Assembly: GCA_002205965.3 (NCBI GenBank)
Contig: NADL03000501.1
Span: forward strand, 620,001-684,000
Source: Kappaphycus alvarezii
Taxonomy: Eukaryota; Rhodophyta; Florideophyceae; Gigartinales; Solieriaceae
DNA length: 64,000 bases
Direction: 5' to 3'
This document shows, piece by piece, positions 29,331-53,306 of this stretch. Numbering within the stretch: the first letter of the stretch is position 1; every line of letters starts with the position of its first letter. The notes below the pieces were generated by a model. It had not been told where the DNA came from and searched no databases. It saw nothing but the letters and a program-made list of their open reading frames with translations. The translations under genes and the position numbers were made by a program.

Positions 29331-31780
29331 TGATACTGAAACTTTACTTCATGGAGTATCTATCGTGTACACTGCAGGACTGACTATACGGCTAAGAACT
29401 AACCGGATGTTCCACGTCAGGCACGTGCAGTGGGGCTCGCGATAGAATAGCCATTGCAACAGAAGACCATAGTGTGCAACTAATGCGCTGATAAATACGT
29501 CTGCGGATCACTGCTGTGGTTGTGTTGAACTTCTCTGCGATGCGCGGGATGAAGTCTTCGTTGAGCAGAATAGAGGCGGGGGATGGGGCACCCAAGGAGT
29601 CGAAAGCCAGGGGCTGAAACTTGAAGTTCGGTTCCTGGAGGTTGTTGTGCGAAGGGGGCGGGATGCGGCGTACCAGTTTGCGCTCCAGGTCTGTGACTTT
29701 GTCTCGAAGGGCAATGTCGGCGGCGCCGCCTGCCATTTGGGTGGCCTTTGTACGCACACCTTGTTTGAACGGCGAGACAATGGTTAGGTCGCAGGCTATG
29801 GGGCGGACCTGTTGGCCAGTGGGCAGGGGGGGGGTTTGTATGAGAATGTCCGCAGGGCGGATATTCGTTCCCGGGACAAGGAGCGGGACTTCGTATTGGC
29901 AGTCCAGGCCCGCGGCGCGAGCAACGTGGTAGGCGAAAACGTTGCGCAGCGAGTTGTGGCGGTGCGGGCGGCCGAAGCCGGCAGGGCAGAGGTCAGCCGC
30001 GTTGTCCCCGAGTGCGTCCAAAGTTTGATTGCAGTGGGCACAGGTGAGCGGGCGGGAGTCGTCGTATACGGGGAGGCCTAGGTGCCGGCGGATCATGGTC
30101 TGCCAGTGGGCCGAGGACACCACCGTAGCGGTCGTGGGGTGAGCGATGAGAAAAGCGGCGGCGGGGCTGTTTCGGAACGCCAGGCCGCGAATCCGATGTC
30201 GGACTTCTTGAGTGGTGTGCTGAGCCGGGTTGGTGTGTGTCAACCATGAGTCGTCGCGCCAGTGGACCTTTGCCTGTGCCTCCTGCTGCACACCATTTAA
30301 GAAGGTTTGGAGGTTGGATGGTTTGGCAGCAAGCAGGCATGGGTCAAAGGGGCCGAGGTCGACGGAGTACGGGCGCCCAGGGATACATTGCAGGAAGTCA
30401 CGGATTCGCGGCAAGGCTTGTCGGACCAGGAATGACCTGTCACCCCGGTATCGGTGACCAGAGACGTCGGCAGAAGGTTGCGTGGTGTACGATGCCGATC
30501 TCTCACGTGCCGGAACCGCGTCGATGATACTAGCTGCGACCGAGCCGTGTAGGAACGGAGAGATGAGGGTAAATCCCTGACCTCCCTGGCGGATGGGTAG
30601 CGTGACTTGGTCCCATGCAGTGTCTGTGAGGGCGATCCCGTGTAGCTCCGAGTAAGACGACCTCTGCAGGGCGTCAAAGGCTTGTGCAGCGGGGGCCGAG
30701 TGTTGTGGGTCGGCGAGCCGGAACGCGTGGGTGACGAGGCATGTCGACGCGCACAGCCGGTGCATGTGGAAACGAGCGCGGGGGTCACGAACGTGGGTCA
30801 GCAGTCGGAGGGTGCGGCGGCACCCATCGACCTTGTCCCGTAGGTATGCATCGGTAAAGGCCCGGTTGCCCATCGGCGCTCCTAGGAGCTCGAAGCCGTC
30901 GCGCGAGCACTCGGACAGATGAAATTCCCGGAGGAATTCCGTGCGGTCCGGCAGGAGCGTGTTCGGCCAGTAAATGCGCGTCTTCCTCGCGTTGACATAG
31001 AGGCAAACAGCCGGACCCTCAGCCTGCAGGAGGTGGAGGGCGCGGCGCAGACCCTGAAGTGTCCCTATGAGAGTCCCGTCATCCGCGTACCATTGATTAA
31101 GCACGATGTCGCTGTCCTCAGCAATTTTCCGAATTAGTGGTTGGATCGTGAGGGAAAACAGCAACATACTGGCCGGGTCGCCCTGCTGGGTGCCCTGAGC
31201 ACTCGGGACCAGGTGACCGTGTTCTGGCGATTCGGTATAAGCAACGGTGGCTGAATACGACCGTATATCATATTCACGAAGCGGGCCAGAGAAGGAGCGA
31301 GTGCAGGAAGTTGAGACAGCATTGACTGGCGATCAACGCGGTTGAAAGCGTTGTGCGCGTCAATGAGGACCGTGGCAACATGCGGAGCACCAGTGAAACG
31401 GCGAAGCAGGGTGCGGGTGTCATGGATGACCGCGTCCATCCCGGCCTTGATACCGTTGGCCGTTTGGAATGGCGCGAGGAACTCTCGAGAGTCATCGATG
31501 GCGCTCGGCAGCAGCGTCTTGGTGACGATGCGGCGGAGGACCGACCCCACAGCGATGGGACGAATTTTGTCCGGTCTCGGCCGTAGCGGGAGTAATGTTG
31601 CGGCAGCGAGCAGGGGCAGGACCGAGTCCGGCAGTTCCCCACGCGCGATCCGCGTCACCAACTTCGTAAGCACACTTTTCCCTGTCACCCCGGCGGCCGG
31701 GCTGACCGATGTTTCGACTAGCAAGTGGAACCAGCGTGCCGGCGTGCGGTCCGGTCCCGCGGTCGTACCACGAGAAATAA
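29331..31780 (-). mobile_element. LINE family 1, copy A, best-preserved
   Basis: The most complete copy. The reverse transcriptase starts near 31780 with ISRGTTAGPDRTPARWFHLL and includes ATVLIDAHNAFNRVDR (motif A Asp). A frameshift near 31,205 then leads to a 591-residue frame (31167-29392) with NQWYADDGTLIG (catalytic YADD at residues 27-30). The C-terminal half has C376-x2-C379 with following His residues, RPADI at 437-441 and CDLTI with Asp 460, resembling the zinc knuckle and P-D...D core of restriction-like endonuclease LINEs. The 3' untranslated part runs to about 29331 and aligns with that of copy E. The N-terminal region before the reverse transcriptase is missing: the sequence passes directly into copy C at 31780. 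Confidence 0.88.
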
Positions 31781-32345
31781 CTCGTAGCGGCGATTCCGGC
31801 GAGGAGGGGGCCGATTTCAGAAAAGCCATGTCCACGAAGTCAAATCGGGAGGCAGGCTTAGGTCCAAGCTGGGCCGGTGAGCGGAACGTCGTTGAGCTTT
31901 TTATAGAACTCCCGTTGCAGAGAGGCAAGAACGGTCGCAGGATCGGACGCATGGTTGGGATCCGAGGGGAGGAACGCGTGTAGCATCAGGCACGCAGATG
32001 CCCAGCGGCGATGCATATGGAAGCTGGCTTGAGGGCTGGGTATGATGTGGACCTACACGAGGGTCCAACGGCAGGACGCGATCTTCGTGCAGAGGAACTC
32101 GTGCGTGTGTTCGCGGGTCATTCGGGGCACTGAGGAGCTGGAAACCATGGTAGGGGCACTGCTGGGAAGTCGGAGAAAAGTTCTTCGTATGCTGCGAAGA
32201 GTATGCGGGGCCAATATATTCGAGTCTTTCTCATGCTGAGGTGGGGCCTAAGGGGAGGGCCGTGTTGAAGGAATATAGTCCAGGCTCGGCGGAGGGTGAG
32301 GGTGTGCCTACGAGTGTGCCATCGTCTGGACTCTCGAGAAGCTCC
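31781..32345 (-). mobile_element. LINE family 1, copy C, internal fragment
   Basis: A second minus-strand LINE piece abuts copy A at its upstream edge. It covers the reverse transcriptase active-site region (DDGTLVGT near 32310, Tyr-Ala of YADD changed), RKTRIYWPRIL, a FHMHRRWASACLMLHAF segment (~32,000) and LQREFYKKLNDVPLTGPAW (~31,890), ending in the region corresponding to copy A residues ~195-215. Several frameshifts and at least one stop place it among the older copies. Copy A repeats upstream protein regions after copy C has passed them, so the two are separate insertions. Confidence 0.72.
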
Positions 32346-32430: not shown

Positions 32431-32957
32431 ATGAGTACTGTAAGATGCTACACGCTTCCCGCCCTTCGCATCCCCGCCACGCCGGATCCTGCGACCCTTT
32501 TTGACTCTGCCACGGAAAGTCCATGGGTAATGTGTGAAATACACTTTAGAACAATTAGCAAGGGAACTGCAATCCTGAATGCGCCCGTAGGCTCGAGTGA
32601 ATTCATGAGGCGCTACTTCAACAATCACGTACACTCTCTGGAAACTTTTATTCAGACTGTCACGGAACCACAGGATGCACAGGCCTCCTTCCAGATTCTG
32701 CACAACTGCTTCAGGGTATGCAAATTCGGCTACCTCCTTCGGCTTGTGCCGCCATCGTGCACTATACAAGGAGCCACATACTTCGACGAGCTAATGGAAC
32801 AGTCAATGAGGGCACTAGCAGGAGGCGTGCTCTACGCTGCAGTCTTTAGCTCACGCTCAAACCAATTTGGGACTAAACACCAACTCTCAGGATCGGCCTT
32901 ACCTCAGCTAAAGACATCTCCGCAGCCGCCTTGCTCGCTTCGAGCTCCCAAACAAAT
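32431..32957 (+). mobile_element. LINE family 2 fragment, thumb/linker region
   Basis: The frame from 32431 has the typical LINE pattern after the reverse transcriptase palm: ILNAPVGSSEFMRRYF (compare 'LGAPIGS.EF'), EPQDAQASFQILHNCFRVCK, FGYLLRLVPPS and MEQSMRALAGGVL. It lacks the YxDD and the C-terminus. It differs from family 1 in sequence and probably belongs with the copies at 52.8 and 40.2 kb, though no overlap exists to prove it. After residue ~175 the frame enters the terminal motif at 32958, so the fragment is interrupted or truncated there. Confidence 0.65.
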
Positions 32958-33010
32958 CAGGGGGGAAATTTGGAGTGATTTAATATTTGAAAGATATGGT
33001 CGGTTGTGGC
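32958..33010 (+). repeat. Dispersed terminal motif, copy 1
   Basis: GGGGGGAAATTTGGAGTGAT followed by TTAATATTTGAAAGAT and GGTCGGTTGT. The same order of blocks recurs at 36911 and 60796 on this strand and, inverted, at 34570, 37541 and 37760. It interrupts the family 2 LINE fragment. Confidence 0.7.
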
Positions 33011-33699
33011 CCGGAATATCCTAGCTATGTGTGTAAGAGTAAAGGGATGGAGGTGAAAGGAATAGCTTTTGCCAGTAGACGAGACATGGCGGAGTCGTCG
33101 TGCAGCCGTATCGCTGCAGCGGGTTAGCGCAGAGCAGGTTCTTCTTTGCGCTTACCTTCGCTCCTTACAATTTGGTAGCCAAAGAGAGCCTATGTAGCAA
33201 TATTGAAAGTAGGGAAACATGAGTAAGGTCAATCACATCATAGGGCAAAGTGAATAATGATTCACTCAGATGCGACAGCATCAAGGTGCATCGACCCATA
33301 ATCCGGGTGCTTGAAGCAAGGCATCGCACCAAATAGGGAAGTGCTTGAATCCCTTCAAAGCAGGCGGACAGGTGACCTTTTAACCCAATTATGTGAAGTA
33401 AAAGGAAACCTATCCAAATCTGCAGAGGAAAGCTGACCGGACCAAGTCAACTTACGCAACGTATACTACTTATGGCCAGCTAGACGAGCACAACTTATGC
33501 AATGTAAGCGATGACTGCCGTCTGAAGTGACCGACTTGGCACTTACGATGAGGACAAGACGGTATTCTCCCAGCCTCGTGCTCGGGTCTAGCTCCACGCC
33601 CCGGGCGCGCCGTGCTGAAGTGTTGTGCAAGGATTCGTTGTATGGCTAGGCAACGTGGTCGCTTCACAATGCCCCGCTGGCGGATGTGAATGACACGCA
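33011..33699. other. Intergenic stretch with possible zinc-finger scrap
   Basis: No complete gene. On the minus strand, 33667-33470 reads CPHRKCQVGHFRRQSSLTLH, which has the spacing of a C2H2 finger of the kind found at the N-terminus of R2-type LINEs. It is on the strand opposite to the LINE copy that follows, so it may be a scrap of another copy. Confidence 0.3.
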
Positions 33700-35075
33700 G
33701 ACCATCAAAGCGCTTCGCACACTACACCCACAGCCACCATGTCCGATCACACCGCTCCGGTGACAGCCTCCCACCGCCCCCCACAGTTACAACAGATGCA
33801 GCTGAGTGTGCAGTTTGCCGCATCTCCCGAGAGACGTCCGCTGGGACCGACCACGCGCCGGGGCGCTGGGTCCATCTCCTCGTGCGTACTCCAGTAAGCC
33901 CTGAAGCTGGAGTGACGGGCAAGGGGGTGCTCGCCAAACTCGTCGCGCGTATTGCGAGCGGTGATCTACCGAGCTCTGTCCTCCCGCTCATGGCTGCCGC
34001 AACTTTGCTGCCTTTACGGCCCAAGCCTAACAAGATCCGGCCTATCGCTATCGGGTCGATCCTCGGCTGCCTCGTGACGAAGACGCTCCTACCCGCCTCA
34101 ATTGATGATTATCGTGCCTTCCTCGCACCATTCCAAATCGCAAATGGGATCAGGGCCGGAATGGACGCAGTTGTCCATGACACGCGTATACTGCTTCGAC
34201 GTTTCTCTCTCCGCGTCGCCACCGCCACAGTCCTCATTGACGTGCAGAACGCTTTCAACCGCTTCGATCGCCACTCCAGGCTAGCTCGGCTGCCGTCACT
34301 TGCCCCAGGCCTCGCCCGGTTCGTGAGCATGGTGAACGGGAGTACGCAACCTCAGTTGATCGTTCCAAATCGTGACCATACGACCATCGTCTATGCTCTA
34401 GGCACTCAGCAAGGCCTGCTTGATGGCTGGCCTGAAGGTAGCATTTTAGGGAGCGTAGTTCCTTCCCCATTACGGTGTCAGTATACCCTTTTTGAGTCGA
34501 TTGTGGTTGTCTGGAAAACCATGAGATAGATCGGATATATCTTCCAAGAGTAAAACACCCAAACGTTTCCTTCAGCAAGGCGACCCGGCCAGCATGCTCT
34601 TGTTCTTTCTCACGATCCAGCCACTCATCCTGCGAATCGCGGGCGAAACAGGTATTATCCTGAACCAATGGTATGCTGACGACGGCACCCTCATAGGGTC
34701 CCTGATCGACTTTCGGCGTGCACCTCGGATCCTTCGGGACGAGGGACCTGCCTGCGGCCTGCACGTTAACACGGACAAAATTCGCATCTTCTGGCCAACG
34801 GTGCGGCAACCAGAGCGCGAAGCCTTTCTCCGAGAGTTCTTCCTCGAGGAATGCGCCTCGGACGGGTTTAAACTTTTGGGGCCTCCGCTCGGGCAATCGA
34901 GTGTTCACCGACTCTTTCCTCCGCGCAAAAATTGAAAGATGCTGCCGCACCCTCCAGCTGCTACACAAGGTGGCCGAACCCTGCGCACGCTATCACATGC
35001 ATCGCGTCTGCGTTTCTAGTAGATCATGCTTTCATCAAACTTGCCGACCTGTCACACGCCCGTACCGCTGTATGT
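33700..35075 (+). mobile_element. LINE family 1, copy D, reverse transcriptase half
   Basis: Plus-strand copy beginning near 33700 (ALRTLHPQPPCP), then RETSAGTDHAPGRWVHLLV, ATVLIDVQNAFNRFDR (motif A), and after a 156-bp insertion, NQWYADDGTLIGS (YADD, ~34665-34710). A 1-base deletion near 34,890 shifts the frame at LLGPPLG/NRVFTDSFLRAK. Homology ends near 35075 in the segment VDHAFIKLADLSHA, far short of the zinc-knuckle and endonuclease-like region. The insertion at 34416-34571 and the inverted 3' fragment directly downstream make this copy a composite. Confidence 0.82.
34416..34571. mobile_element. 156-bp insertion in LINE D with 10-bp duplications
   Basis: The insert is bordered on both sides by TCAGCAAGGC (34406-34415 and 34572-34581), a target-site duplication within the conserved GTQQGDPAS stretch of the LINE. 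Its last 90 bases (34481-34570) match 37447-37536 inside the gypsy fossil at 88 of 90 positions. The first 65 bases match nothing else in the window. The right end carries the dispersed terminal motif in inverted orientation (TAAAACACCCAAACGTTTCC). Confidence 0.82.
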
Positions 35076-35081
35076 TGCTAG

Positions 35082-35262
35082 CTAAGTGCTAACCGGGTGG
35101 TCCACGTCGGCCACGCACAGGTGTGCGGGACACGATAGCGTTCGCCAGAGACGACCAGATCGTGTAACTAACGCGTCGATATATTGTACTGTAGTTCGAA
35201 TAACTCCAACAGATGTATGCAACTTTTCCGCGATGCGTGGGAGATGATCCTCTATGAAATCG
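35082..35262 (-). mobile_element. LINE family 1, copy F, inverted 3' end
   Basis: On the minus strand the sequence reads FIEDHLPRIAEKLH, SVGVIR and finally DVDHPVST-stop, matching the last ~55 residues of copy A (FIPRIAEKFN ... DVEHPVSS-stop). It directly adjoins the plus-strand copy D at about 35076-35082 with no 3' untranslated sequence between them, forming a tail-to-tail junction. Confidence 0.75.
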
Positions 35263-35756
35263 CGTACAGTACTTGTTTTAAAGGGGGGTTAATGGGTTTT
35301 TACTGAGCAAACTACGGTAAGTTTAGGTCTAATGAGGTTAAAGACTGTCCCGGATGGATATGTGTCGCTGGGCAGGAGGAGCGCGTCACGCCCCATCCGG
35401 ACATGTGATCGAAGTTTGGGCACCTTCAGCTAGTAGATGGCAGCGCCAGCGCACTTTTTTGTTTTTTTTAATTTTGCTAACCTTGCTTTTTCCACCGAGA
35501 AATGCATAGGCGATAACTGCTCCGACCTAAAACGCGCACTTGGTCAGCGACTACTAAGACTTCAACCTCACTACAAGCGCCGCAGCAATGCGTTGCTTAT
35601 TCCAGCGAAATCTTTCTGGTTCCCGGAAAGGTGGAGTCTCCTCGCAAACTTGAACAGTGTTCCCCGCCTTGATAGCCTTCATCAAGCAATCCTCCGTGTC
35701 GTCCCCTCGCTCGCATAGTACATTGCGAAGCGTACATCTGTGCCGAAGTGAAAAAT
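35263..35756. other. Spacer before the cytidine deaminase 3' end
   Basis: Contains GTACAGTAC at 35273 and a GGGGGGTTAAT string at 35284 like that at the 3' end of family 2 LINEs. No gene was recognised; the plus frame 35437-35718 has no supporting features. Confidence 0.5.
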
Positions 35757-36368
35757 TTACGAGCCCTCGCCCTCGCCTCTTTCTTGGGGCTTGTCGAGAT
35801 CCTTCGGCGAGAACGCAAACGGGAGAAGATCTGCGAGGGTTGTTCGCGACACCTCTCCATTTGGCCGGAGGCAGTACACATGAAAATTGCCGAATTCGGA
35901 CATGACTTGGCGACATGCGCCGCAAGGGTATATAAAGGAATCCGTGACGTCGGTGGTCAAGACGATGGCTTTAAAGTTTCGAACGCCTCTTGTCACGGCA
36001 TTAAACACGGCTGTTCTTTCCGCGCATACAGTTAAACCGTAAGAGCTGTTTTCAATGTTGCAGCCAGAGTAGACGGTGCCATTGTCCCCGAGGAGCGCGG
36101 CACCGACTCTAAACTTGGAGTATGGTGAGTATGCTCTAAGTTTTGCCTTTTCAGCCTGCTCGACGAGCTTGTCGAGCTCCTCCTCAGTAATCGAGGGGGT
36201 GGCGGCGGTCTCGCTTACTACGTGATTCATGACGACGAGGCCTTGGATAAGAGAAGTGAAAGGGTGAGTTTGAGACGTGGTTGTACTGGATTTGGTGTGG
36301 TTAAGGCTGTGTGAGATATTGGAAGTGGTTACTCTCGAAGCTCGATGTCCAGCTTTGATCCTGATCAT
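35757..36368 (-). CDS. CDA: Cytidine deaminase
   Basis: Hydrolyses cytidine and deoxycytidine to uridine and deoxyuridine in pyrimidine salvage. The 203-residue intronless frame has the homotetrameric CDA signature: SPYSKFRVGAALLG (78-94 region), CNIENSSYGLTVCAERTA with C115 and catalytic E117, and PCGACRQVMSEFG with C149 and C152 completing the zinc site. LADLLPFAFSP near the C-terminus is also typical. Residues 1-46 are an extension beyond the usual length. They contain no Asp or Glu, several Arg/Lys and many Ser/Thr, like a mitochondrial presequence. M47 begins the segment where known enzymes start. A TATA-like TATTAAAGG lies only three bases before the first ATG, which favours M47 if that box is real. 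No functional neighbour: LINE debris lies on one side and a Tc1/gypsy patch on the other. Confidence 0.93.
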   Translation of the reverse strand: MIRIKAGHRASRVTTSNISHSLNHTKSSTTTSQTHPFTSLIQGLVVMNHVVSETAATPSITEEELDKLVEQAEKAKLRAYSPYSKFRVGAALLGDNGTVYSGCNIENSSYGLTVCAERTAVFNAVTRGVRNFKAIVLTTDVTDSFIYPCGACRQVMSEFGNFHVYCLRPNGEVSRTTLADLLPFAFSPKDLDKPQERGEGEGS

Positions 36369-36370
36369 AC

Positions 36371-36379
36371 CCTTTAATA
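36371..36379 (-). promoter_or_regulatory. TATA-like box of cytidine deaminase
   Basis: The minus strand reads TATTAAAGG, ending three bases before the upstream ATG (36368). If used, transcription would start inside the first ~15 codons, so translation would begin at M47 (codon at 36230). It may also be fortuitous. Confidence 0.35.
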
Positions 36380-36443
36380 CAGTAAATGTCGCAGCAGTAG
36401 TGCTGGATCAAGCAGCCGATAGCTTGTGTGATGCGTGTCGTCG

Positions 36444-36487
36444 GGATGGCGCCAAGTGTGATTCCGGATGGCGCCAAGTGTGATTCC
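36444..36487 (-). promoter_or_regulatory. 22-bp tandem duplication with E2F-like core
   Basis: Two perfect 22-bp units (36444-36465, 36466-36487) each contain the palindrome TGGCGCCA. Read on the strand of the cytidine deaminase gene, each includes CTTGGCGCC, which fits the E2F consensus TTSSCGC. They lie 76-119 bp upstream of the first ATG. E2F control would suit a nucleotide-salvage gene needed in S phase; this is inferred from motif match only. Confidence 0.45.
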
Positions 36488-36906
36488 CGTGCAATGGCCT
36501 GCAGAATACTTCGGGTGTGAACCTTTCAGTGTGATGACCATCCCAACCACTCCGATGATCGCGTTGCCCGAGAACTTGCCCTCCGCTACAGGTCAGCTTG
36601 CATTTGAATAAAGGGTCACCTCTTTAGTCAGGAGTTTAAATAAATGTTCACCACACCTCTTCCCCCGTGAACTCTATGAAATAAAATCGCTTTTTTTCCG
36701 CTGCAAATTAAGAATCACAGAAATAAAAATAAATCCAGGAAAAACTGTACAAAAATTCACTTTGCAAATTTTCGTGTACCAAACTCGGTTCAAAGCTATT
36801 ATTGACATTATTGAATCCAGTGAGCTCTCTTGCCAAGTGTACTGTAAACCATTAGAAAGCTGTGGGGCTCGACAGTTGCCTGTATAAAGCACAACTGATC
36901 CAACAA
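36488..36906. other. Spacer, no gene seen
   Basis: Upstream region of the cytidine deaminase gene and AT-rich filler before the terminal motif at 36911. No coding or RNA signal was recognised. Confidence 0.5.
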
Positions 36907-36910
36907 AAGC

Positions 36911-37156
36911 GGGGGAATTTTTGGGTTATTTTAATGCATGGAAGATGCGGTCGGTTATATCCACGAGGCTAATACGTTATCCAACAAAATGCCTCGAGAT
37001 AAGTTTCTTTCAAACTTTGAGAAAGGCCAGATAGTTGCCCTCAGTTCTGATTTTGCCTCTGTCAAAGAAATTGAGTTTCAACTGCAACGATCTCCAGGGG
37101 CTGGGCAACGGTTGATATGGCGCCCTGAGAAAGTTGATGCAAGCAAAATCAACTGA
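36911..37156 (+). pseudogene. Tc1/mariner-like transposase N-terminus with terminal motif
   Basis: The dispersed terminal motif (36911-36955: GGGGGAATTTTTGGGTTATT, then GGAAGATGCGGTCGG) is followed by a 73-codon frame (ATG 36938, with a better second start at MPRDKF). The peptide LSNFEKGQIVALSSDF...KEIEFQLQRSPGAGQRL matches the first helix-turn-helix of Tc1/mariner transposases ('LS.fE.GqI..L...g.s..eIa..l.RS'). It ends at 37156, well before the DDE domain, so it is a truncated copy. The motif would then be the terminal inverted repeat of this family. Confidence 0.6.
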
Positions 37157-37444
37157 TACACCAAATAACACGACAAAATTCGGAAGGTGCGCGGGAAGTC
37201 ATCTGAAGGAGAGAAGGCAACTTCCGTGCCTGAGACTGCACTGGATTTGTGCCTTGCATACCGTCGATCCGAACAAGCTTCTGCACTTTGACTTGCGCTA
37301 CATGTCACAGGATGTAGATGGTTTCGTAAACTTACTTATCTTTACAGACGACCACTGCGGTTACATCTGGTTACTACCGACAAAGACGTGTACAGTAGAA
37401 AAGGTGGCTAAATGTCTGATTCGATTGTTCTCTATTTTCGGAGT

Positions 37445-37541
37445 CGGTATACCCTTCTTGAGTCGATTGTGGTTGTCTGGAAAACCATGGGATAGATCGG
37501 ATATATCTTCCAAGAGTAAAACACCCAAACGTTTCCCCCCC
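37445..37541. mobile_element. 97-bp insertion in gypsy fossil with 10-bp duplications
   Basis: The insert is flanked by TTTTCGGAGT at 37435-37444 and 37542-37551. Bases 37447-37536 match the insertion in LINE D (34481-34570) at 88 of 90 positions. The right end carries the terminal motif in inverted orientation and a C-run. Compared with the LINE D insertion it lacks 65 bases on the left, so one end is common and the other variable. Confidence 0.8.
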
Positions 37542-37697
37542 TTTTCGGAGTTGTCGCTGATTGGGTATTTGATAGGAAAAGCCATTTCAAGAATGAACTG
37601 GCTCTCCTACTGCGTGAGAAGTAAGACCCTCTCTACATACCATTTCACCCTAGCATGCGCGCAGGTTGTGACATTGCAAGACCGTACTTTAACATAC

Positions 37698-37760
37698 CAA
37701 TGTATCCGGGATTACAGCCGACCTTATTTTTCAATCATTAAAACACCCAAAGTTTTCCCC
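37698..37760. repeat. Dispersed terminal motif, divergent inverted copy
   Basis: Reading the minus strand from 37760: GGGGAAAACTTTGGGTGTTT, then TAATGATTGAAAAATAAGGT and CGGCTGTAATCCCGGAT. This is the same block order as at 32958 and 36911. Imperfect similarity between ACTTTAACATAC (left) and ACTTAGCATAC (right) may be a decayed target duplication. Confidence 0.5.
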
Positions 37761-39644: not shown

Positions 39645-40074
39645 AACTGATTTTTGGATGCAGTCGGACAAAGCAATATCATAACTAGAAATCTTATATG
39701 CATTATAAAATCGTGTAACGGATTTTGGATGCAGAGGGACAATCCTTAATCATAACTAGAAAACTTCATACGCATTATAAAATCGTGTAACGGATTTTGA
39801 ATGCAGTCGAACAAAGCAATATCATAACTAGAAACCTCATACGCATTATAGAATCATATAACTGATCTTTGGATGCAGTCGGATAATCCCTAATCATAGC
39901 TAGAATCCTCATACATATCATAAAATCATGTAACTGATTTTTGGATGCAGTCGGACAATCCTTAATCATAACTAGAACCCTCATACGCATTATAAAATCA
40001 TGTAACGGATTCTGGATGCAGTCTGACAATCCTGAATCATAACTAGAAACCTCATACACAATATAAAATCAAAT
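39645..40074. repeat. 72-bp minisatellite, six units
   Basis: Units begin at 39645, 39717, 39789, 39860, 39932 and 40004, and are 72 bp except one of 71. Each contains a GGATGCAGTC-like block, AATCATAACTAGAA and GCATTATAAAATC. Two alternating sub-types (GACAAAGCAATAT versus GACAATCCTTAAT) suggest a higher-order unit in the left half. Because 72 is divisible by three, one minus-strand frame stays open across several units (40059-39775), but its composition gives no sign of a real protein. Confidence 0.95.
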
Positions 40075-40099: not shown

Positions 40100-40395
40100 A
40101 TTGCCATAACAGACTCCTGTACGAACTCAAGTACAGTAAGTAGTACAGTACTAGGTACAGTACAGGCTGGCCTCCCTTCCACCTTCTGGTAGATTGGAGT
40201 GCCATCCACAGCTTTCGACGCATCGTGCGGTTTCGCAATTGGCTTGACAATGATACGATATCTACGCTTCGGTACAAATTTACTGGATACCAACCCACAT
40301 ATCCACCACAGTAAATTAACCCCCCATTTACACAGGTACAGTACAATGTACAGTACGAAGTACAGTTCCTCATGTGGCAGTAGTACAGTATGTGT
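40100..40395. repeat. GTACAGTAC palindrome tract
   Basis: Multiple overlapping GTACAGTAC/TACAGTACA strings at 40123-40164 and 40334-40395. The tract is split by the 169-bp LINE family 2 insertion at 40165-40333. Confidence 0.8.
40165..40333 (+). mobile_element. LINE family 2, 169-bp 3'-end copy
   Basis: It matches the 3' part of the 52.8-kb copy: the last codons (AGLPSTFW-stop in this frame), then about 150 bp of untranslated sequence ending in CACAGTAAATTAACCCCCCA and TTTACAC. AGGTACAGTACA flanks it on both sides (40153-40164 and 40334-40345), a perfect 12-bp target duplication. It is an extreme 5' truncation. Confidence 0.88.
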
Positions 40396-49692: not shown

Positions 49693-50811
49693 CTAATCAT
49701 CTGTACTTAGCGTGAGCTTCTCAGCACCACATGCCGGAACCATCCACGGATGCGTTGCCGAGGAGGTCTGAATCTCCAAGAGCTTTTCGCGGAACAAAAG
49801 GGACAAATCTCCGTCTTGTTCCTGCGGCTTGACTGAGACGACGTCGTCTCCAGCCGTGATGCTGTGCACCGGAGAGATGACAGCCGCAGTGCCGCTTCCA
49901 AAAATCTCTGTGATATTTCCTGCCTTCACTTCCTGGAAAACTTCATCGAGAGGAATATCTCTCTCCTCTGCGGGTATGTCCATTTCCTTGGCCAGTTCAA
50001 GAATAGAGCGTCGGGTGACCCCGTCTAGAATAGTTCCATCTAATCTTGGGGTAATTAACTTTCTAGTTCCTTGATGCTTTGTTACAAAGAATACGTTCAT
50101 CATACCGACTTCAGTGACCAATTTCCTCTCTTCATCGCTCAACCATAAAATCTGATCGAAGCCCATTTGTTTTGCTTCCTCCGCTGGTCCAATACTACTC
50201 GCATAATTCCCGCCTGTCTTGCAGTTCCCCACTCCGCCTTTCCATGCACGTACGTAATGGGGATTTGCCAACAACTTGATACCCGCAAGAAATCGTCCGG
50301 ATGCTGCAGTGCCAAAGAACGAGCCCACTGGGGATGCTATTACAAACAACATGGCGGCATCACTTCTCCTGACACCAATTCGATCCTCAGTTGCGATAAT
50401 ACAGGGCCTTAAATAAAGAGCACCCTCCGTTGCGATCGGAGCCCAATCTCGCTGGCAGTCAACAAAACTTTGCAATATCTCGAGCATTTGGTTCTCATCG
50501 ATAGTGGGAAGTGCTATGCGTTTCGCGGAGTTGTTGAGCCTCGCTATGTTGAGTTGTGGACGGAAGAGTCTAACTTGGGAATGATCCGGCGCCTTGTAGG
50601 CCTTGAGGCCTTCGAACACCTCCATGCCGTAGTGAAAGATGGATGCTGAAGGAGGCAATTGAATTGGTCCATATGGTTTCAGTATGGGAGGTGACCAACC
50701 ATTTTTCCTTGTCCAGTTCATAACAACCATCTTATTAGAGAAGACAGAACCCCAGGGAAGATTATTTTCCTTGATACTAGCCAGAATTGAGGAGATTTCC
50801 GAACGAGTCAT
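49693..50811 (-). CDS. BCAT: Branched-chain amino acid aminotransferase
   Basis: PLP enzyme (fold type IV, class IV aminotransferase) exchanging the amino group between Leu/Ile/Val and 2-oxoglutarate/glutamate, the last step of their synthesis and the first of their breakdown. The 372-residue frame is intronless and complete. Signatures: HYGMEVFEGLKAY (60-72), RLFRP, LYLRP (132-136), GGVGNCKTGGNYA with Schiff-base Lys198, QILWLSDEE, EVGMMNVFF (E234), DGTILDGVTRRSIL (258-271), TEIFGSGTAAVISP (301-314, phosphate cup) and HPWMVP near the C-terminus. The length fits eukaryotic BCATs. The Met at 50811 is the only start: an in-frame stop lies 12 codons upstream with no Met between. No long transit peptide is visible, so a cytosolic location is more likely than plastid. 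A TATATA lies 83 bp upstream, followed farther out by GTAC-palindrome clusters. Confidence 0.96.
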   Translation of the reverse strand: MTRSEISSILASIKENNLPWGSVFSNKMVVMNWTRKNGWSPPILKPYGPIQLPPSASIFHYGMEVFEGLKAYKAPDHSQVRLFRPQLNIARLNNSAKRIALPTIDENQMLEILQSFVDCQRDWAPIATEGALYLRPCIIATEDRIGVRRSDAAMLFVIASPVGSFFGTAASGRFLAGIKLLANPHYVRAWKGGVGNCKTGGNYASSIGPAEEAKQMGFDQILWLSDEERKLVTEVGMMNVFFVTKHQGTRKLITPRLDGTILDGVTRRSILELAKEMDIPAEERDIPLDEVFQEVKAGNITEIFGSGTAAVISPVHSITAGDDVVSVKPQEQDGDLSLLFREKLLEIQTSSATHPWMVPACGAEKLTLSTDD

Positions 50812-52791: not shown

Positions 52792-53306
52792 TTTTTTTAA
52801 ATGGGGGGTTAATTTACTGTGGTAGATATGTGGGTTGGTATCCAGTAAATTTGTACCGGAGCGTAGATATCGCATCATTTTCAAGCCAATTGTGAAACCG
52901 TACAATGCGACGAAAGCTGTGGATGGCACTCCAATCTACCAGAAGGTGGAAGGGAGGCCAGCCAGCAAACAAACGGCATTGGAGGTTACTGTCAAAGCGG
53001 AGTGCCGCTGTAAAAGAATGCCTCTAACCTTCGAAAACCGTTCCATTGCGCGGGTGGCAACGGTTCTCGCGAGTTCCTTGACGACGGAGAACGCCGTCGG
53101 ATGCCATCCTCCAAGCGTTGAGATGGGAACAGGAACCAGACTGTTTCTCCCAGGCAGCTCATCAAGGAACCCTTGGTATTTCCGCTGCTTCTCTGCGTGA
53201 GCTGCGTTGAGGTTTATGAGTGGGTTGAAAGCCCTGGCTCTTGCGTGGGAGGGAGCGAGCGGGTTGACCAAGGTTACGTCGAAATAATCCGTGCCACCGA
53301 AACCTT
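52792..53306 (-). mobile_element. LINE family 2, fresh 5'-truncated copy
   Basis: Minus-strand insertion of 515 bp. Its 5' end reads straight into an uninterrupted frame: GGTDYFDVTLVNPLAPSHAR, LNAAHAEKQRKYQGFLDELP, VPVPISTLGGWHPTAF, LLQRHSALTVTSNAVCLLAG, ending LPSTFW-stop. This is the typical end of LINE ORF2-type proteins whose Asp ('YFDVTLV') belongs to a restriction-like endonuclease core. About 140 bp of 3' untranslated sequence follow, ending in seven A residues (T-run 52792-52798 on the plus strand). Perfect 12-bp duplications flank it. The open frame, tail and perfect duplications indicate a recent insertion. Confidence 0.9.

Follow-up and report, generated by a model that had tools for sequence, protein, structure and literature searches.

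Target-primed reverse transcription is established for R2. Copies of R2 are often 5′-truncated where first-strand synthesis is incomplete, according to a study (PMC7650587) that also describes R2-like LINEs in cockroach as carrying a restriction-like endonuclease (RLE) and as being largely not target-specific. HERO is portrayed in a second source (PMC4640811) as a group of RLE LINEs that are largely not target-specific, and Utopia, of the NeSL clade, is described there as encoding one ORF with a central reverse transcriptase (RT) and a C-terminal zinc finger and RLE.

Here we analyse a 64,000-nucleotide stretch of the genome of Kappaphycus alvarezii (hereinafter the window), which contains two short inserts with a nearly identical segment. 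We are highly confident that these inserts (copies 1 and 2) are independent insertions of LINE 3′ ends by target-primed reverse transcription, a confidence that concerns their origin and not the clade of the LINE.

RESULTS

Two clean insertions with a common right end

At a 14-base seed and a 60-base minimum, two families of direct repeats are found in the window, and copies 1 and 2 make up one of them. As the preliminary description had reported, the inserts of 156 bp and 97 bp match at 88 of 90 positions, have a common right end and are each surrounded by 10-bp direct repeats (Table 1). The two mismatches fall at 34491 and 34524. The terminal 21-mer of the LINE described below has three matches in the window versus 0.02 expected from shuffling.

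Table 1 Inserts, target-site duplications and a possible remnant in the window
Feature	Positions	Strand	Sequence
Left target-site duplication, copy 1	34406..34415	.	TCAGCAAGGC
Copy 1, 5′-truncated LINE 3′ end (final ORF codons and 3′ UTR), 156 bp	34416..34571	+	
Right target-site duplication, copy 1	34572..34581	.	TCAGCAAGGC
Left target-site duplication, copy 2	37435..37444	.	TTTTCGGAGT
Copy 2, shorter 5′-truncated 3′ end of the same LINE as copy 1, 97 bp	37445..37541	+	
Right target-site duplication, copy 2	37542..37551	.	TTTTCGGAGT
Remnant, possibly of a third insertion: last 21 bp of the LINE, two mismatches, no evident target-site duplication	37740..37760	+	

Joining the short flanks of site 1 leaves a reverse-transcriptase frame open across the junction (...VYALGTQQGDPASMLLFFLTIQPLI...WYADDG; in another rendering, the RT block around copy 1 reads GTQQGDPASMLLFFLTIQPLI...WYADDG), in line with the earlier placement of copy 1 inside a LINE reverse transcriptase. 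At site 2, an integrase-like frame is open across the corresponding junction (...LFSIFGVVADWVFDRKSHFKNE), and the block around copy 2 reads FSIFGVVADWVFDRKSHFKNE, a motif that marks it as a putative gypsy integrase. Since both host frames re-open when the short flanks are joined, each insert represents a clean insertion.

The window contains other repeats and genes. A related LINE on the minus strand (29392-31952) lies in two open frames, of 272 and 591 aa, that overlap. It has an RT, its C-terminus is of the same type as in the insert family, and a comparison of its ORF with the PDB returned nothing meaningful. In inverted orientation, the segment 31228-31376 matches 34224-34372, inside the LINE that hosts copy 1, at 73%. 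On the plus strand, an ORF at 32431-33024 resembles by eye what follows the RT in the insert family (…GTAILNAPVGSSEF…PPSCTIQGA…) and is likely an older relative, judging from this resemblance. A spaced repeat of ~72 bp occurs five times in tandem at 39645-40052, its copies being 62-87% alike, and a 166-bp inverted repeat, 95% complementary, lies at 40165-40330 and 52798-52963, 12.5 kb apart. Intact-looking genes without introns for a cytidine deaminase (35757-36368) and a branched-chain aminotransferase (49693-50811) are both on the minus strand. In homology searches, the aminotransferase and an actin each matched proteins from a wide variety of eukaryotes.

The inserts are tails of a long LINE

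Copy 1 is collinear with longer copies elsewhere in the genome (L004, L010 and L023), and copy 2 matches one of these, L010, at 97% over 98 bp. Identity among the longer copies extends upstream of the shared segment, unbroken, into a long coding region ending ...AAVMSNAACLMAGLKVAF-stop. Because the longer copies run into coding sequence, the shared 90 bp are 3′ UTR, and copy 1 also contains the last codons. Folding of the L010 3′ UTR is no better than that of its shuffles (z +1.33).

The RT is present in the long copies (L070 and L072-L082), one of which (L078) has an open frame of 824 codons that is cut off where the locus ends. It matches R2 proteins (9nl3, E 6.2e-8; R2Tg 9dou, E 8.2e-8; 9nl2, E 0.0051), and with single pieces of the LINE as queries the Pfam RVT_1 match (E 0.00047) is below the curated cut-off. 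TMEM206 and poxvirus inclusion repeat were rejected as Pfam identities of LINE pieces, both being chance-level matches. Behind the RT, a CCHC-like motif occurs in 3/3 copies and a PD...D motif in 2/3, as detected by loose patterns chosen after the alignment had been seen. An AlphaFold2 prediction of the 274-residue C-terminus from 7 sequences (mean pLDDT 37.9) was too poor to use.

A 5′ tag is located ~3245 bp upstream of the 3′ pattern end, and beyond it ~450-480 bp more are common to five loci (262 bp in one further locus), which together give a LINE of ~3.7 kb, although this additional stretch might, in principle, belong to a target repeat instead of the LINE. The inserts, previously proposed to be a short retroelement, are thus the tail of a much longer one. 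A narrow literature search of open-licence papers did not find the LINE family.

Thousands of copies, truncated from the 5′ side

The genome-wide search that the preliminary description had proposed covered 336 Mb in 884 contigs, the window included, and returned thousands of copies. With the 156-bp copy 1 as query, at least 41 matches were obtained from the 40 of 1480 candidates that were scored, and the matches listed include 40 places (copy 1 itself possibly among them) with 97-100% identity over 152-156 bp. Matches to 25-mers with up to 2 mismatches drop monotonically away from the 3′ end, from 7047 for the terminal 25-mer and 3911 for an internal one ~66 bp from the end to 2544, 594, 284 and 132 (distances to the 3′ pattern end ~25, 66, 161, 522, 1497 and 3245 bp, respectively; reversed-pattern controls 0 each); as these 25-mers differ from one another and are slightly unequal in conservation, the ratios are approximate.

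We measured individual copies in a sample of 70 loci with an exact terminal 25-mer, taken from the first contigs listed, of which 9 were removed as duplicates before counting (mostly a tandem array on contig C3) to leave 61 independent copies. The 70 loci came in sets of 30 and 40, and 30 further listed places were left out. The alignment was forced through the 3′ end and reached 700 bp. Median length is 108 bp (n=61), with 19/61 copies at ≤60 bp, 36/61 at ≤120 bp, 4/61 at ≥522 bp and 3/61 reaching the measurement limit, and the 5′ ends are spread from 27 bp to >690 bp. The fraction longer than 161 bp (19/61) agrees broadly with the pattern counts (2544/7047).

Some copies lie in complex arrangements. 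The array on contig C3 (29743-100163; L045-L054) is long and consists mostly of ~12.8-kb units with two truncated LINE copies per unit. Elsewhere, copies are directly followed by part of the same tail in inverted form, the two tails abutting (L064 and contig C693:31344-31549), and at ~1000 (reverse orientation) in L077 a long copy has inserted into a second copy of this LINE, within the 3′ UTR.

That the majority of copies are short, and that a few 5′ ends recur (4/61 start at AGTTCC, at a distance of 106-108 bp from the end of the terminal pattern), would suit a separate short non-autonomous element (SINE) with a LINE 3′ tail behind most of them. A SINE would have a fixed 5′ end, whereas the ends here are scattered from 27 to >690 bp, and the copies are collinear with the LINE, its coding end included. 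Nor did a window scan find a tRNA or any Rfam match at gathering score that would indicate a tRNA-, 7SL- or 5S-derived head. We consider a SINE origin very improbable.

Target-site duplications and insertion preference

Flank repeats of ≥8 bp accompany 25/61 copies versus 0.18 per 61 expected when flanks are swapped between loci, and those of ≥7 bp accompany 32/61 versus 1.53. Repeats of ≥8 bp occur at 8/20 copies of ≤66 bp, 9/22 of 67-160 bp and 8/19 longer ones; this equal frequency shows that the smallest stubs, too, are genuine insertions. A well-placed target-site duplication (TSD) of ≥7 bp is absent from 31/61 sampled copies, 3 of which have their 5′ end beyond the 700 bp examined. The constant 3′ end, scattered 5′ ends and TSDs of 7-12 bp at 30/61 sampled copies bear out the 5′ truncation suggested earlier, and the family is neither limited to two copies nor composed of TSD-less copies with arbitrary ends.

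The 30 copies with a well-placed TSD reveal, by majority or plurality, an insertion preference for CA|CTTT (positions -2,-1|1-4: C 19, A 18 | C 16, T 20, T 15, T 15; n=30; background ~0.25 per base). The target at site 1 (GGCA|CTCAGC) is near this preference, and site 2 reads CTA|TTTTCG. The sampled flanks are diverse, with no single sequence common to the insertion sites of the 61 copies.

Filler DNA copied into double-strand breaks, the other origin offered by the preliminary description, fits inserts that are short and partial. It predicts neither TSDs nor a fixed end, yet the 3′ end is constant across thousands of copies, a target-site preference exists and TSDs are far above the swapped-flank control, leaving filler scarcely any probability. 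Equally remote is a local duplication of one window copy from the other, as the 3-kb distance and 2/90 differences might suggest, since the TSDs and 5′ ends differ and each copy is 1 ungapped mismatch over 84 bp from several copies elsewhere but 2 from its partner (118 copies compared, some being the same place counted twice). No flanking sequence common to both inserts was seen in the sequence inspected outside them. These comparisons indicate that copies 1 and 2 are separate insertions from a homogeneous family, neither copied from the other. Such closeness is what a homogeneous family would produce among separate insertions, and the earlier claim that at least one move was recent is weak.

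DISCUSSION

Target-primed reverse transcription is the best explanation for what we observe directly (the family and its copy number, the gradient of truncation away from a constant 3′ end, the TSDs and target preference, and the re-formed frames at both sites) and accounts for all of these features. The LINE protein, with an endonuclease that we infer to be of the restriction-like type, would cut the target, preferably at CA|CTTT, and prime cDNA synthesis at the 3′ terminus of the RNA. Because reverse transcription would usually halt early, an insertion would comprise no more than the final tens to hundreds of bases, and a staggered second cut would give rise to the 7-12 bp duplication.

The window pair is ordinary in kind, and what sets the stubs apart is their unusual shortness. 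Candidate causes are low processivity, RNA templates that are short and loss of long copies. A doubtful idea is that short copies are the main product of the family and not chance aborts, through habitual stopping of the RT within ~100 bases or a 3′ RNA template processed to that length; if so, the LINE would generate insertions of 30-150 bp, complete with proper TSDs, that standard repeat annotation would largely miss.

An origin from LINE tails explains a puzzling repeat pair, and such short stubs may pass for orphan repeats or for indels that lack an explanation. With thousands of 3′ ends in 336 Mb, the family offers a large collection of very short, datable LINE insertions that carry duplications. 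It could help to establish how soon target-primed reverse transcription can break off and the insertion nevertheless be finished.

The RT, the constant 3′ end with variable 5′ truncation and the TSDs identify the family as a non-LTR retrotransposon. It resembles R2 and R2-like LINEs in RT sequence, in the order of RT followed by putative CCHC-like and PD...D motifs (by loose patterns here) and in its 5′-truncated copies, which PMC7650587 describes for R2. R2 targets a fixed 28S rDNA site, whereas the present family has diverse sampled flanks and only the CA|CTTT preference; the window sites are LINE RT and integrase-like sequence instead of the 28S rDNA that characterizes the R2 clade. In layout it is comparable to Utopia, with a single ORF, the RT at its centre and, putatively here, a zinc finger and an RLE at the C-terminus, but Utopia targets U2 snRNA genes and the sampled sites of the present LINE lack one common sequence. 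In its little target specificity and putative restriction-like endonuclease, the family is like HERO and the non-site-specific R2-like elements.
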